Positions 11,912-60,684 of a DNA stretch of 64,000 nt are shown here, piece after piece. This DNA is from Petrachloros mirabilis ULC683 (GTDB lineage: Bacteria > Cyanobacteriota > Cyanobacteriia > Thermosynechococcales > Thermosynechococcaceae): contig NZ_WVIC01000023.1 in assembly GCF_009939295.1 (NCBI RefSeq), forward strand, positions 1 through 64,000. Reading direction: 5' to 3'. Position 1 is the stretch's first letter. Each line of letters opens with the position of its first letter. The notes beneath the pieces were generated by a model. It made no database searches and was not told where the DNA came from. It saw nothing but the letters and a program-made list of their open reading frames with translations. The position numbers and the translations under genes were made by a program.

Positions 11912-12294
11912 CTGGTTGACTGACAAAACTTCAATTTGGGGGGTTCTGACTATCTCACAGTCCCCCAGAATGGGGGATGTAGGGGGCGAACGCAGGGTGA
12001 AATCGTTTTTCTCAGACTTGTGTTTACACCGTAGCCCAAGGGGCTACGGTGTAAACACATCTCTAGTTCTCCGTGTTCCACGCTGCATTCGCCCCCCCAA
12101 CCCCCCAAAATTGGGGGGAGAAATCCGAAAGTTAGAACTAGTTCCCCCCAGAATTACGCCCTGCGGGCACGCTGCGCGAGGGGGGGCTAGGGGGGCGAAT
12201 GCAAAGATTTTGAATTCAAGACTTGTGTGTACACGGTAGGCCCCTTGGGAGAGGGATTGGGGGTGAGGGCGTACAACTTTTGTCAGTCAATCAG
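11912..12294. mobile_element. 383-bp composite miniature element with 9-bp target duplication
   Basis: The ends are CTGGTTGACTGACAAAA on the left and TTTTGTCAGTCAATCAG on the right, an inverted repeat with one mismatch. Perfect direct repeats CTCTGTACC flank it at 11903-11911 and 12295-12303, so it inserted with a 9-bp duplication. Inside are the right half of one CTACSGTGTACACACA-type element (about 11930-12036), then a nearly full copy (12044-12239) and a G-rich core. No transposase is encoded, so mobilisation would be in trans. Open frames crossing it are not considered genes. Confidence 0.75.
12044..12239. mobile_element. Nested CTACSGTGTACACACA-type miniature element
   Basis: The terminal inverted repeats are CTACGGTGTAAACACA and TGTGTGTACACGGTAG. 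The interior has paired G/C runs of the type CCCCCCAA...TTGGGGGG and an imperfect palindrome around ACGCCCTGCGGGCACGCTGCGCG. It is the same family as the copies at 13879-14079 and 32675-32875, and lies inside the larger 383-bp element. The arms extend outward through CCCAAGGGG and CCCCTTGGG, so the target site is hidden. Confidence 0.65.
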
Positions 12295-13878: not shown

Positions 13879-14079
13879 CTACGGTGTACACACAAATCTA
13901 AGAAGATGATTTAAAAGCCTCTAACATCCTTACACTCGCCCCCCTGCCCCCCCTCGCGAAGCGTGCCCGAAGGGCGTAATTTGGGGGGTTCTGAATATCT
14001 CACAGTCCCCCAGAATGGGGGATGTAGGGGGCGAATGCAGGGTGAAATCGTTTTTCTCAGACTTGTGTGTACACGGTAG
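13879..14079. mobile_element. 201-bp CTACSGTGTACACACA-type miniature element
   Basis: The terminal repeats are CTACGGTGTACACACAA and TTGTGTGTACACGGTAG. The length is exactly that of the copy at 32675-32875. The interior has the GCGAAGCGTGCCCGAAGGGC palindrome-like segment and the CCCCCAGAATGGGGG hairpin. No matching target duplication is seen at its flanks, so one flank may have been rearranged. Nothing in it looks protein-coding. Confidence 0.65.
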
Positions 14080-14143
14080 CCCGCTCTGGGAGAAGGGTTG
14101 GGGGTGTAGAGCTTTGCTCTTCTCGCAGAGTGGGTCATAGGCA

Positions 14144-14159
14144 TTTGTCAGTCAATCAG
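14144..14159. repeat. Solitary right end of the TTGACTGACAAA element family
   Basis: TTTGTCAGTCAATCAG matches the right terminus of the 383-bp element at 11912-12294, but no left partner is found close by. The region 14080-14143 carries part of the same G-rich core. It marks a broken or recombined copy just upstream of the HerA-like gene. Confidence 0.5.
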
Positions 14160-18378: not shown

Positions 18379-18603
18379 GGGTTTTACCGACATAGAACGT
18401 TCACTTCAGGACTGGAGTGGACAAAGTAGAGTTTAAACTCATTGGCCAGCCCAGGAAAAGATGCTTCTAGCCTTATTAGCCTTAGCACTGGCCTAAGCTC
18501 AACACCGCAAATCCACAAGGTTTCTGCTCTGCAAGCTTTATGAAAGCTAGGGTGTCCAAAAGGTTCCCAACGGGAATCGCTTGGCCAAACAAAGTCCCTG
18601 AGT

Positions 18604-18757
18604 TGATTGACTGACAAAACTCGAACTGCCCTCACCCCAACCCCTCTCCCAGAGCAGGAGAGGGGCTTCAAGCCTAGTTCCTAACTCCGGCTCCCCTTCT
18701 CCCCTTTTGGGAGAAGGGGTTGGGGGATGAGGGAAAAAGATTTGGCAGTCAACCAGA
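18604..18757. mobile_element. 154-bp TTGACTGACAAA-type miniature element with 9-bp target duplication
   Basis: The left end is TGATTGACTGACAAAA and the right end is TTTGGCAGTCAACCAGA. Perfect direct repeats TCCCTGAGT flank it at 18595-18603 and 18758-18766. The interior core (CCCTCACCCCAACCCCTCTC and its mirror) is shared with the ACGTGAGTTCGAC family at 40394, although the termini differ. It lies in the 730-bp gap 18379-19108. Confidence 0.75.
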
Positions 18758-18831
18758 TCCCTGAGTACAGGTCACCCTCATTCCAACTTATTACGCATGG
18801 GCTGTAGATGCTGTGATGAGTCCAGTCTAGG

Positions 18832-19019
18832 TCAGTGAGCTGGGTCATTGCCAGATGCCAACTTGACCCTTGAGAGGTTTGAGGTTGTGGCTGAGAAGTT
18901 TTGGTCAATAAAGTAAAGAATCGGGCGATGAATCAATTGACCACTTGTTGGATCAGAGAGATACATCTGAAGGACTGGCTGGCAATTCGCAATCTTTCCA
19001 GGCAGAGTGTCAATCTCTT
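18832..19019 (-). other. Possible gene remnant interrupted by an element
   Basis: A minus-strand open frame enters from the truncated TATAGCGGTT element and then reads IDTLPGKIANCQPVLQMYL followed by SDPTSGQLIHRPILYFIDQN, which has protein-like composition, ending at 18832. It has no start of its own outside the repeat. It could be the 3' part of a decayed gene, or chance. No family is recognised. Confidence 0.22.
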
Positions 19020-19021
19020 TA

Positions 19022-19085
19022 TAGCGGTTCTCACCTGAGTGAGGTATGGGGTGTGGGGGTGGAACCCCCACGCAGGGGGCACTGC
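19022..19085. mobile_element. Truncated TATAGCGGTT-type miniature element
   Basis: The sequence from TAGCGGTTCTCACC to GCAGGGGGCACTGC matches the left 60% of the copies at 38168 and 60557, then diverges. The second arm of its internal hairpin and the right terminus are missing. It sits just downstream of ccmK4. Confidence 0.65.
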
Positions 19086-19108
19086 AGTGCGATGGTTACC
19101 CCGTAGCG

Positions 19109-32674: not shown

Positions 32675-32875
32675 CTACGGTGTACACACATCTCTGGACA
32701 AACCCATTCCACCCTGCATTAGCCCCCCCGACTCCCCCTCGCGCAGCGTGCCCGCAGGGCGTAATTCTGGGGGGAGATCAACAAAAACTGGGACTATTTC
32801 CCCCCCAGAATTGGGGGGCTAGGGGGGCGAGCGCAAAGATTTTGAATCTTTTCAAGACTTGTGTGTATACGGTAG
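32675..32875. mobile_element. 201-bp CTACSGTGTACACACA-type miniature element with imperfect target duplication
   Basis: The ends are CTACGGTGTACACACA and TGTGTGTATACGGTAG. Flanks GTGTTGTCTG (32665-32674) and GTGTTGCCTG (32876-32885) form a 10-bp direct repeat with one mismatch. Inside are CGCGCAGCGTGCCCGCAGGG and the paired C/G runs of this family. It separates the pseudouridine synthase gene from pyrC and explains why the pyrC frame appears open upstream of its real start. Confidence 0.7.
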
Positions 32876-37466: not shown

Positions 37467-38165
37467 ATGCAGCTTCCCGATACCCTTGAAGCGGCGGTCT
37501 TGCAATCCATTGAGGCCACTCAAGCTGCCTTGGCCGATGGGCATAACCGTCTTCAGCTTGAGTTTTTGCTGCCCGAGCTCAAGCCCATGGTTGTGGCACA
37601 GCAATTTCTGACGCAGTTTCCAAACTTGGGGAACTCGGTCAAGGTTTTTTTTGCGGATGCGGGAGCCGCAGCGCTGGCTCGCCGCGATTGGGGAGAGGTG
37701 CCCTATGTGATTCGAGGGGTCAATGAATTATTGGAGCCAATTCAACCAGAAGACGACGCCTTTGTCCTGGTAGCACCCACCCCGGTTGAAGTCAATACCA
37801 TTGAGGCCATGTGTCAGCAGGCTGGCGATCGTCCCTTCATTTTGCTGAACCCCAATTTACAAGACGTAGCGGTGGTTGGCATTGGCTATGCAGGCCGACA
37901 ATTACGGGAACGGTTTTTAAGTACCCTCGAACCTTGCTACTATTTGCGCCCCTTGGCTGGGGGAGCCATTCTGCGCGCCTATCCCTCCCCTTGGCTGGTG
38001 TGGCAAGAAACCGAAGTGGGACAATATGATTGCCTTAGCGAAGAAGCTGAGCGACCGACCCCCGAGCGCCTAGAGCAACTTTTTAATCCTCGCACGGCGA
38101 CCCGTCCCCAACCTGGGGGCTGGCTTAGACAAATGCAACAGTTTTTGCGAGCCTTGAGTCAGTAA
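37467..38165 (+). CDS. DUF1995 domain protein (LPA3-like)
   Basis: The 232-residue protein begins MQLPDTLEAAVLQSIEATQA and has the family's LQLEFLLPELKPM, VKVFFADAGAAALARRDW, FVLVAPTPVEVN and PFILLNPNLQDVAVVGIGYA segments. DUF1995 proteins are found in cyanobacteria and plastids; a plant member is linked to photosystem II accumulation, but the role here is unproven. No membrane helix is seen. The TAA stop (38163-38165) directly abuts the TA target of a miniature element. Confidence 0.85.
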   Translation: MQLPDTLEAAVLQSIEATQAALADGHNRLQLEFLLPELKPMVVAQQFLTQFPNLGNSVKVFFADAGAAALARRDWGEVPYVIRGVNELLEPIQPEDDAFVLVAPTPVEVNTIEAMCQQAGDRPFILLNPNLQDVAVVGIGYAGRQLRERFLSTLEPCYYLRPLAGGAILRAYPSPWLVWQETEVGQYDCLSEEAERPTPERLEQLFNPRTATRPQPGGWLRQMQQFLRALSQ

Positions 38166-38167
38166 TA

Positions 38168-38271
38168 TAGCGGTTCTCACCTGAGTGAGGTACGGGGTGT
38201 GGGGGTGGAACCCCCACGCAGGGGGCACTGCCCCCTGCACCCCATGTACTCCATTGATCTGTAAACCGCTA
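38168..38271. mobile_element. 104-bp TAGCGGTT miniature element flanked by TA
   Basis: The inverted ends are TAGCGGTT and AACCGCTA, bounded by TA on both sides, as expected for a TA-targeting (IS630/mariner-like) element. Two internal hairpins, GTGGGGGTGGAACCCCCAC and GCAGGGGGCACTGCCCCCTGC, fill the interior. Copies lie at 60557-60659 and, truncated, at 19022-19085. The element begins 2 bp after the stop of the DUF1995 gene. Confidence 0.7.
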
Positions 38272-38382
38272 TAACGGGTCTACTGCGGGCAATGCCCTCT
38301 TTCCCCAATTGATAAACGATCCGGATAGAATATTGGCAGTCTTAGCGACTGATGCCATCTCTGCTTCTGCTGAGGAAAGCCC

Positions 38383-40393: not shown

Positions 40394-40547
40394 ACGTGAG
40401 TTCGACAGCTCTCGTCTGCCCTCACCCCAACCCCTCTCCCAATCCTGGGAGAGGGGCTAAAACGTTGAATTTCTGCTCTGTTCCCCCTCTCCCAATGTTG
40501 GGAGAGGGGGCTAGGGGGTGAGGGCGGATAAGTCGTCGAACTCACGT
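40394..40547. mobile_element. 154-bp ACGTGAGTTCGAC miniature element, 7-bp target duplication
   Basis: Perfect 13-bp ends ACGTGAGTTCGAC/GTCGAACTCACGT bound 154 bp. AATCCAG is duplicated at 40387-40393 and 40548-40554. The core holds two hairpins (CTCTCCCAATCCTGGGAGAG and CTCTCCCAATGTTGGGAGAG). It has the same length as the copies at 49105 and 51918. It inserted inside an older G-run repeat. Confidence 0.8.
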
Positions 40548-40666: not shown

Positions 40667-41491
40667 CTAATCCTCTGAGTTGCTATCCTGTGCAGCTTTT
40701 TGCTTACGCCGCTTCCAATAGCGACCAAAGAAGGCAGCTCCAACCGCTAAACCTACCGCAGTAGATGGCTCTGGAATCGGCTCCGGAGGAGGGGGCGGTG
40801 GGGGTGGCGGTGGTGGGGGTGGCGGCGGTGGGGGCGGCGGTGGAGTAGGCGGTGGCGGAGTAGGCGGCGGTGGAGTAGGCGGTGGTGGAGTAGGTGGTGG
40901 TGGAGTAGGCGGCGGTGGAGTGGGTGGCTCTGGGGGTGCAGTGGGCGGTTCTGGTGGCGGAGCGGGTTCGTCTCCACCCCCCCCTAAAAAGGCTAAGGGC
41001 ACAGCTCCAAGACCAGCTAAGGGCCACAGTGGCAAGCCTGCCGCAGGGACAGGTCCACCCACGGGAGGAGCTCCTCCAATGGCACACATGCCTACGCCAC
41101 CCATTTCACAACAGAAGTCATCGAGCCCCCCGTCCAAGGCCAGAAATTCAGAAGTGCCAGGATCTGAGAAGCCAGGTGCTAGGTTTGGGGTAATACTTTG
41201 AGCCAGAAGGTTAGAGCCTCCTGCGCTGGCAATCAGGTTTGAATAGGAGCGGGAGCTTGGAAGCACCCCGCTTTCCTGGTAAGGCTCAAGATATACATCT
41301 GTTGGCGTTAGGGGGGGATCACTACAAAGCTCGTCGGCAAGAGTCAACGGGTCAGACGCTGGAGAAGATGACGTCCCCTCACCAGAAAGTAGACTGAGTT
41401 GCACGGCTTGAACCAGCCGAGCTCTTGTGATCCCAGAGGTGAGTATTAACAGAAATAGGGCTGCGGGTGAAACTTTTTTAGACCAAGTCAT
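40667..41491 (-). CDS. PEP-CTERM sorting domain protein with proline-rich repeat
   Basis: The 274-residue protein has a signal peptide (MTWSKKVSPAALFLLILTSG), a Ser-rich N-terminal domain with two Cys pairs, a long Pro/Thr tract (about 175-235, PPPPT repeats passing into pure proline) and a C-terminal PEPSTAVGLAVGAAFFGRYW followed by KRRKQK. That tail is the PEP-CTERM signal recognised by exosortase, so the protein is predicted to be processed and exported to the cell surface or matrix. The 14 residues after the basic cluster are longer than usual. No exosortase gene is in the window. The function of the mature part is unknown. Confidence 0.78.
   Translation of the reverse strand: MTWSKKVSPAALFLLILTSGITRARLVQAVQLSLLSGEGTSSSPASDPLTLADELCSDPPLTPTDVYLEPYQESGVLPSSRSYSNLIASAGGSNLLAQSITPNLAPGFSDPGTSEFLALDGGLDDFCCEMGGVGMCAIGGAPPVGGPVPAAGLPLWPLAGLGAVPLAFLGGGGDEPAPPPEPPTAPPEPPTPPPPTPPPPTPPPPTPPPPTPPPPTPPPPPPPPPPPPPPPPPPPPEPIPEPSTAVGLAVGAAFFGRYWKRRKQKAAQDSNSED
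40786..40925. repeat. Tandem 15-bp repeats encoding PPPPT units
   Basis: Units of the form GGCGGTGGAGTAGGC and variants, read on the minus strand as Pro-rich codons, are repeated in tandem and grade into GGTGGGGGTGGCGG tracts. The array probably varies in length by slippage. Frames on other strands here are artefacts of the composition. Confidence 0.8.
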
Positions 41492-49079: not shown

Positions 49080-49470
49080 TCAAGGTTCCGAACAATCTTG
49101 ATCAACGTGAGTTCGACAGCTCTCGTCTGCCCTCACCCCAACCCCTCTCCCAATCCTGGGAGAGGGGCTAAAACGTTGAATTTCTGCTCTGTTCCCCCTC
49201 TCCCAATGTTGGGAGAGGGGGCTAGGGGGTGAGGGCGGATAAGTCGTCGAACTCACGTTTGATCAGGTGTCTGAGGGTGCGATGGTCTACGACCGGGCTT
49301 TGCCCATCGCAGCAATTCCCAAATCGCAATCTCACAATCCGGAAACGCTGAGGGCGCGAGGATGTCTTGCTCCGAGAGCGTTTGCTGCACCCTATAGCCC
49401 GCCGGCTCCGGCTCCCGAAACACATGCAGGCATCGCTCCTGCACATCCAAAACCCAATGGTTATGCGGAG
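49080..49470 (-). pseudogene. 3' fragment of a Uma2-family gene, split by an element
   Basis: The frame HWVLDVQERCLHVFREPEPA and on to GRRPSHPQTPDQT matches the C-terminal third of the Uma2 gene at 51217, including downstream non-coding sequence (TAGCACGGACGTTTCAGTT). The first two thirds are absent. The 154-bp element at 49105-49258 splits the last codons. It is a decayed partial duplicate. Confidence 0.8.
49105..49258. mobile_element. 154-bp ACGTGAGTTCGAC miniature element, TTGATCA duplication
   Basis: Same ends and length as the copy at 40394. TTGATCA is present at 49098-49104 and 49259-49265. The paralogous sequence at 51234-51240 has a single TTGATCA with no element, so insertion into this copy is directly visible. 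Its core carries CTCTCCCAATCCTGGGAGAG and CTCTCCCAATGTTGGGAGAG. Confidence 0.88.
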
Positions 49471-51917: not shown

Positions 51918-52071
51918 ACGTGAGTTCGACAGCTCTCGTCTGCCCTCACCCCAACCCCTCTCCCAATGTTGGGAGAGGGGCTAAAACCTTGAATTTGTGC
52001 TCTGTTCCCCCTCTCCCAATGTTGGGAGAGGGGGCTAGGGGGTGAGGGCGGATAAGTCGTCGAACTCACGT
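51918..52071. mobile_element. 154-bp ACGTGAGTTCGAC miniature element without matching flanks
   Basis: Ends and length equal those of the copies at 40394 and 49105, but both hairpins here use the CAATGTTG loop. The 7-bp flanks TTATTCT and AATTGAA do not match. The element contributes the last codons of the minus-strand gene ending at 52035. Confidence 0.8.
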
Positions 52072-60325: not shown

Positions 60326-60556
60326 GGATGAATCACGCTCTCGGGAATATCTGAACAAAGATTACAAAATTTTACATATTCTTATCACATTCTAAGCGAA
60401 CCACCCCCATTCCAACAGGTTGTCTGGCACTTTAGCAGATTTGCCCTGCCATTCAACGGATGACGGTTGCCTTGAGCAGGGCAGGCCAGACCCCTACCCC
60501 TTAACGATGGGTAACCAGCCTGTCACAATGGGATCAACGCTTCTTGTTCCTCGATA

Positions 60557-60659
60557 CAGCGGTTCTCACCTGAGTGAGGTAGGGGGTGTGGGGGTTCCAC
60601 CCCCACGCAGGGGGCACTGCCCCCTGCACCCATGTACTCCATTGATCTGTAAACCGCTA
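60557..60659. mobile_element. 103-bp TAGCGGTT-type miniature element flanked by TA
   Basis: Same family as the copy at 38168: CAGCGGTTCTCACCTGAGTG at the left, AACCGCTA at the right, bounded by TA. It lies 25 bp before the ATG of the DUF3082 gene and could affect its transcription. It takes up much of the 60326-60684 gap, whose other part shows no gene. Confidence 0.7.
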
Positions 60660-60684
60660 TATATTGATTAGCTAGGTACTTGCG

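Follow-up and report, generated by a model that had tools for sequence, protein, structure and literature searches.

The window analysed here, a stretch of 64,000 nucleotides from the cyanobacterium Petrachloros mirabilis ULC683 (contig NZ_WVIC01000023.1), holds a 154-bp element that is probably a non-autonomous miniature transposon (MITE), in which ends of a family that we call B surround a pair of inverted boxC/PIT/TM triplex motifs. Homologous triplex interiors stand between at least three further, unrelated sets of ends. Taken as a whole, we favour with fair confidence an old capture of the triplex module, after which the resulting end-core pairs were amplified.

A B-ended element with a triplex core

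An earlier note, made from the letters of the window alone, had described a 154-bp element at 18604-18757 with a 9-bp duplication. The two copies of TCCCTGAGT that border it, at 18595-18603 and 18758-18766, indeed match exactly. The element and its parts are:

18604..18757 (+): B-family MITE of 154 bp that holds a triplex core; 18603-18756 in the family register
18595..18603 (+): 9-bp target duplication, left copy (TCCCTGAGT)
18604..18620 (+): inverted repeat of the left end, CTGRTTGACTGACAAAA in the family form
18629..18638 (+): left arm, putative third strand CCCTCACCCC
18641..18665 (+): hairpin of the left arm, CCCCTCTCCC-AGAGCA-GGAGAGGGG, on the C-rich strand of the triplex motif
18693..18719 (+): hairpin of the right arm, CCCCTTCTCCC-CTTTT-GGGAGAAGGGG
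18722..18733 (+): right arm, putative third strand GGGGGATGAGGG
18740..18757 (-): inverted repeat of the right end, CTGGTTGACTGACAAA in the family form
18758..18766 (+): 9-bp target duplication, right copy (TCCCTGAGT)

In the register of the family, whose ends read CTG...CAG, the element would span 18603-18756, with 8 of 9 bases duplicated. Its left purine stem is one G short. The element combines small size, inverted ends, a target duplication and several copies, the features by which MITEs are recognized, and lies between a DUF928 gene on one side and two genes for BMC-domain (carboxysome-shell-like) proteins on the other. The intact, exact 154-bp form occurs only twice in the genome (C37:18603 and C14:42402), and the remaining B copies are chimeric, nested or partial. 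Apart from one tRNA, no Rfam family was found in the window. Another repeat, whose ends read TATAGCGGTT..AACCGCTATA and whose interior is a G-rich hairpin, is present at 38165-38273 and 60554-60661 and in part at 19019-19096, and a repeat search returned 13 overlapping copies of glycine-codon-like GGN repeats at 40760-40969.

The core is shared by four sets of ends

The window also carries three elements of a second family, A, with ACGTGAG ends:

40394..40547 (+): A-family MITE, 154 bp, 7-bp duplication AATCCAG, core as in B
49105..49258 (+): A-family MITE, 154 bp, 7-bp duplication TTGATCA, core as in B
51918..52071 (+): A-family MITE, 154 bp, no duplication visible, core as in B

More than 20 identical interior bases had been claimed for the two kinds of element; the longest identical stretch is 26 bases, CTGCCCTCACCCCAACCCCTCTCCCA, found at 18626, 40416, 49127 and 51940, and lies within a homologous interior of ~105 bp. 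The right arm of the B element (CCCCTTCTCCC..GGGAGAAGGGG followed by GGGGGATGAGGG) is the counterpart of the A right arm, the sequences not being identical. A 16-mer of the core, with up to two mismatches, has four sites in the window against 0.06 expected. The whole assembly (4.12 Mb, 79 contigs) has 69 exact copies of the 22-base core and 82 sites when up to two mismatches are allowed; 39 of the 82 lie inside listed A elements and 43 outside. The reversed-pattern control of this mismatch search (69 hits) is uninformative because the motif is nearly its own mirror image; exact matching of a general motif pattern gave 71 sites in the genome and none for the reversed pattern.

The 43 core sites outside A, together with three further searches of the genome, yielded four end sets around the triplex core, A, B, C and E, alongside a fifth element, G, with an all-C core of its own, that is frequently found inside the others. 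Target duplications were counted over all end pairs at most 420 bp apart in 407 kb of sequence from this genome; the fractions are lower bounds, because the pairs include some chance or nested ones.

A: ends ACGTGAGTTCGA; exact duplications of 7 bp in 28/62 and 8 bp in 9/62
B: ends CTGRTTGACTGACAAA; 9 bp exact in 8/24, with at most one mismatch in 13/24
C: ends GGTGCGACCTCTATTTG / GGTGCGACTTCAACC; 10 bp exact in 1/7 (weak)
E: ends GGGTGCATCCCA; exact duplications of 8 bp in 3/11 and 9 bp in 1/11
G: ends CTACGGTGTACACACA; exact duplications of 11 bp in 11/65, 10 bp in 6/65 and 12 bp in 1/65

Mispaired-flank controls for the five gave 0.00-0.35. The duplication of the C family is probably 10 bp. 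As the duplication lengths differ between the end sets, these are presumably served by different transposases.

The core corresponds to the boxC/PIT/TM motif

Judging from its sequence, the core is the intrastrand-triplex motif boxC/PIT/TM. According to Holder et al. (2015; PMC4666352), this motif is abundant in cyanobacteria, and that of E. coli forms a triplex in vitro, while footprinting in vivo detected no stable triplex. The same authors proposed horizontal transfer and found no mobility genes or transposons near the E. coli motifs. The likeness to the motif as portrayed there extends to a hairpin CCCTCTCCC-loop-GGGAGAGGG, a mirrored third strand GGGTGAGGG, a short second loop and the arrangement in inverted pairs; unlike there, the motif pair forms the interior of MITEs with several end types and target duplications. 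A literature search, mostly of titles and abstract openings, returned no report of the motif inside MITEs. A role of the core in transcription termination, which the earlier note had raised, is spoken against by earlier tests, relayed in PMC4666352, in which the motif had neither promoter nor terminator activity.

The genome has 106 arms in which a short-looped, G/C-rich hairpin is accompanied by a mirrored third strand. Stem and third strand agree throughout: CAC goes with CTCT in 100 arms and CAT with TTCT in 6, with no off-diagonal combination (0/106), and the run lengths are equal in 99 arms (4/4 in 54, 5/5 in 44, 3/3 in one) and unequal in 7. Among loci of other genomes, a mixed stem and third strand was seen in 1/74 and unequal run lengths were common, so these arms lend limited support to a triplex. 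Fold prediction, with a tool that has no triplex model, gave a strong cruciform-like fold (z of -7.35 and -11.81) in which the two third strands were paired together.

The earlier note had allowed that the similarity might be limited to the copies at hand. This does not hold: besides the 69 exact 22-mers, the general pattern is present in 75 of 292 genomes of the phylum, and its reversed control gave zero hits except for a single one in one genome. Not all of these motifs are in MITEs. Two cyanobacterial genomes (G090 and G290, with single hairpins) and an E. coli locus (L211) carry the motif without visible MITE ends, the E. coli motif pair showing no inverted ends by eye, and MITEs are therefore not its sole context. 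At five loci of G090 (L252, L255, L258, L270 and L279), single triplex hairpins were noted immediately upstream of what looks by eye like the start of a type IV pilin-like sequence (FTLAEVLITLGIIG), with no MITE ends seen.

Nesting, chimeras and inverted interiors

Element G measures about 174-201 bp between CTACGGTGTACACACA ends and has a 10-12-bp duplication (examples are C28:66046-66221, C15:781-956 and C24:49008-49180). Its core has a triplex-like layout of all-C sequence, CCCCCC-TAG-CCCCCC-AAACTT-GGGGGG. The insertions of G show the hairpin loop of the triplex motif to be a preferred place, or hotspot: triplex stem sequence flanks 34 of 58 copies, and CCC-N5-GGG 23 of 58. IS231, a member of the IS4 family, has a target preference for GGG-N5-CCC. 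G is like IS231 in duplications of 10-11 bp, often at CCC-N5-GGG, and its duplication length falls in the 10-12 bp of the IS231 subgroup; it is unlike it in its ends, CTAC as against CAT in IS231 in the table of PMC2266710. The window holds the following G-related features:

11912..12294 (+): B-ended composite with exact 9-bp duplication CTCTGTACC and G remnants between the ends
12044..12239 (+): G element nested in this composite
13879..14079 (+): G element adjoining a lone B end at 14143-14155 on the minus strand
32675..32875 (+): G element that is not in a triplex core, with one mismatch in its 10-bp duplication

Eight B/G chimeras of 176-177 bp consist of B ends, the left triplex arm and half a G element. 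Four of the eight have an exact 9-bp duplication, from which it follows that the chimera was amplified. In the A family the interior is inverted relative to the ends in four copies (C17:102089, C34:55391, C47:41053 and C77:1128), as compared to 39 canonical ones, and in two A-ended elements (C26:79507 and C44:25085) there is just one palindromic motif. In another genome (G286, locus L263), an E-ended copy with an 8-bp duplication is nested in a B-ended copy.

Elements that are half A and half B, C or E were not seen among the facing arm pairs, as typed in a table whose null came from element-rich stretches; its threshold was too high and left true A, B and E ends labelled unknown in many cases, and its type counts were set aside. 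The single A/B pair listed (C53) is an A copy nested in a G copy that is itself nested in a B copy. The rearrangements of interiors relative to ends that were seen are inversion within A, nesting of G and the B/G chimeras. The earlier note had suggested that one core was captured by more than one set of transposase-recognized termini, and that cores might recombine among them. Its first part is well supported: in this genome one core lies within A, B and E ends and probably within C, and elsewhere within B ends, E ends and one further end type (L182). Swapping as an active or frequent process is not supported: half-A/half-B copies were not seen, and interiors group by end family across genomes.

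Homologous interiors between unrelated ends

The grouping of interiors is clearest in the E family. The E interior of L263 in G286 has 83-89% identity to E interiors of the present genome, in which E and B interiors share ~77-78%, so E ends and their core travel together. At L182 an unrelated end set surrounds an interior that is 86-87% like two E copies of our genome. B interiors fall into two types, one in our genome and at L181, L192 and L260, the other at L288, L351 and L352. The sharing of a core across unrelated ends is real. Since no hybrids were seen and interiors group by ends across genomes, the end-core pairings look old and few rather than continually remade.

These data bear directly on the idea that the families have similar cores owing to ongoing gene conversion inside a single genome. 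The hairpin loops and spacers of A copies, which occur in several combinations and orientations, and the four inverted A interiors would fit such exchange. We nevertheless regard it as unlikely, because interiors group by end family across genomes and not by genome, and half-and-half elements were not seen. We think it improbable, too, that what spreads is the triplex core on its own, moved or copied independently with ends acquired or coincidental. Its wide occurrence in the phylum and in E. coli, and the single hairpins without visible ends, agree with this proposal; on the other side, the cores of our genome mostly sit symmetrically within ended elements, the duplications lie outside the ends and not at the core border, and interiors keep to their own ends across genomes.

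Independent evolution of one useful triplex-forming layout in each family, with cores of no common ancestry, would account for the layout of G, built from a different all-C sequence, and for the agreement of stem and third strand within arms. This agreement may reflect few independent events, since arm variants may be related by descent. Moreover, A and B share the 26 identical bases, and parts of the spacer text are common to B and E (CTTCAA..TCCGGCTCCCC) and to A and C (GGGGCTAA.AC and GTTCCCC), which favours common descent and makes convergence a doubtful explanation.

To compare interiors and ends, one element per family was aligned in all six pairs of A, B, C and E against 500 dinucleotide shuffles. 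The interiors scored 67-104, compared to a shuffle maximum of 34 (0/500 in each pair) and 23-34 for the reversed interior. For A and B, the pair of the original observation, the score was 78; the shuffles reached at most 34, and reversing the interior, by which its C-rich composition is preserved, gave 34. Left and right ends were at or near chance in the six pairs, the closest being the B/C left end (10/500 shuffles), and the ends of the A and B elements are unrelated, as had been proposed. Chance similarity, for which the C- and G-rich sequence of the element might speak, and a single MITE family with drifted ends can accordingly be dismissed, given these scores and the differing duplication lengths.

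The interior homology begins at the third strand CCCTCACC and stops at its counterpart, GATGAGGG or GGTGAGGG. That all four families have this border exactly at their third strand suggests selection for the complete triplex motif.

B ends in other genomes and a related insertion sequence

A scan of genome contigs with the B end CTGGTTGACTGACAAAA alone gave at least 108 matching stretches, of which 80 loci were listed, mostly from cyanobacteria, with some from Chloroflexi and a few others. Among the matches listed are 84 exact B ends. The triplex motif lies just inside 12 of these; 37 of the 84 have a partner at most 420 bp away, including 11 of the 12 with the motif. Linkers of 5-8 bases separate B ends and motif in other genomes. 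Inverted ends with a duplication enclose 6 of 18 triplex pairs there (four with B ends, one with E ends and one of the L182 type), compared to none in 20 mispairings.

B ends enclose other interiors as well. At L283, L325 and L340 (by eye also at L344 and L359) they surround a different repeat, which starts GTAGGTTGGGT; B ends thus hold repeat interiors of several kinds. Four Chloroflexi contigs (L289, L303, L339 and L361) carry B-ended MITE-like elements with a common interior, from CTTAT and with a GCGGAG stretch, that is unrelated to the triplex core.

B ends bound an insertion sequence of 1323 bp with an exact 9-bp duplication, GCTTGATAC, in Nodosilinea nodulosa PCC 7104 (L295); a second B-ended insertion sequence, of 1322 bp (L298), has no exact duplication visible. 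The products of both, 400 aa in L295, match Pfam DDE_Tnp_1 above the cut-off; with the NCBIfam IS4 model they reach 112 and 127 bits, short of its cut-off of 152. By eye, the IS4 signature Y(2)R(3)E(6)K is represented by Y-GL-R-FDI-E, with Q where K is expected. With ends starting CT, a 9-bp duplication and a length within 1200-1350 bp, the L295 element has the properties of IS10-like members in the table of PMC2266710. B elements accordingly resemble MITEs of the IS4 family (IS10-like; same table) in ends that start CT, a 9-bp duplication, a related insertion sequence of ~1320 bp and a DDE transposase, and differ in that their interior is a triplex module found in other end families too, and not a deleted transposase gene.

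In our own assembly, where DDE_Tnp_1 was the one transposase family searched (2 matches), none of the A, B, C, E and G ends turned up on an autonomous insertion sequence. The nearest relative of the B transposase there is 34% identical and lies within an element of other ends, and open reading frames adjoining solitary A and B ends gave no transposase by eye. The ends of many contigs, among them C2, C10, C16, C22, C31, C36, C52 and C67, fall within or next to these elements, and autonomous copies may therefore be missing from the assembly.

Discussion

In the explanation that we favour, the B family would consist of a pair of triplex motifs enclosed by the two short ends from an IS4-like insertion sequence, and homologous triplex-spacer-triplex interiors would lie between the ends of at least three further sets (A, E and probably C), presumably those of other transposases. 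Each transposase would act in trans on its own ends, in this genome presumably as well, and the interior would be cargo. Long ago, the triplex module may have been enclosed by the ends of several insertion sequences. The path to this probably led through nested insertion and then internal deletion, as in the present-day B/G chimeras; a direct instance in A, B, C or E was not seen. Afterwards, each end-core pair would have been amplified and moved between genomes as a unit.

It is conceivable, and we put this forward tentatively, that the triplex pair is a working module, taken up repeatedly, whose fold-back joins the ends or shields the element, and that MITEs carried boxC/TM to many bacteria. 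The sharp third-strand border in four families, the 5-8-base linkers of B elements elsewhere and the two B interior types are compatible with such a module but no proof of it.

REPINs, BIMEs and other palindromic repeats of bacteria are likewise paired inverted palindromes spread in intergenic DNA. The elements described here share this arrangement and differ from REPINs and BIMEs by their classical inverted ends, their target duplications and the variety of end types around a single core.

For decades the boxC/PIT/TM motif has been on record with no account of how it spreads. What is new is its link to several MITE families with unrelated ends. MITEs in a cyanobacterium offer one route for the spread of the triplex motif, and as the motif lies inside mobile elements with several unrelated end sets, this spread becomes testable. 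The finding also raises the question why different transposons carry one structure.
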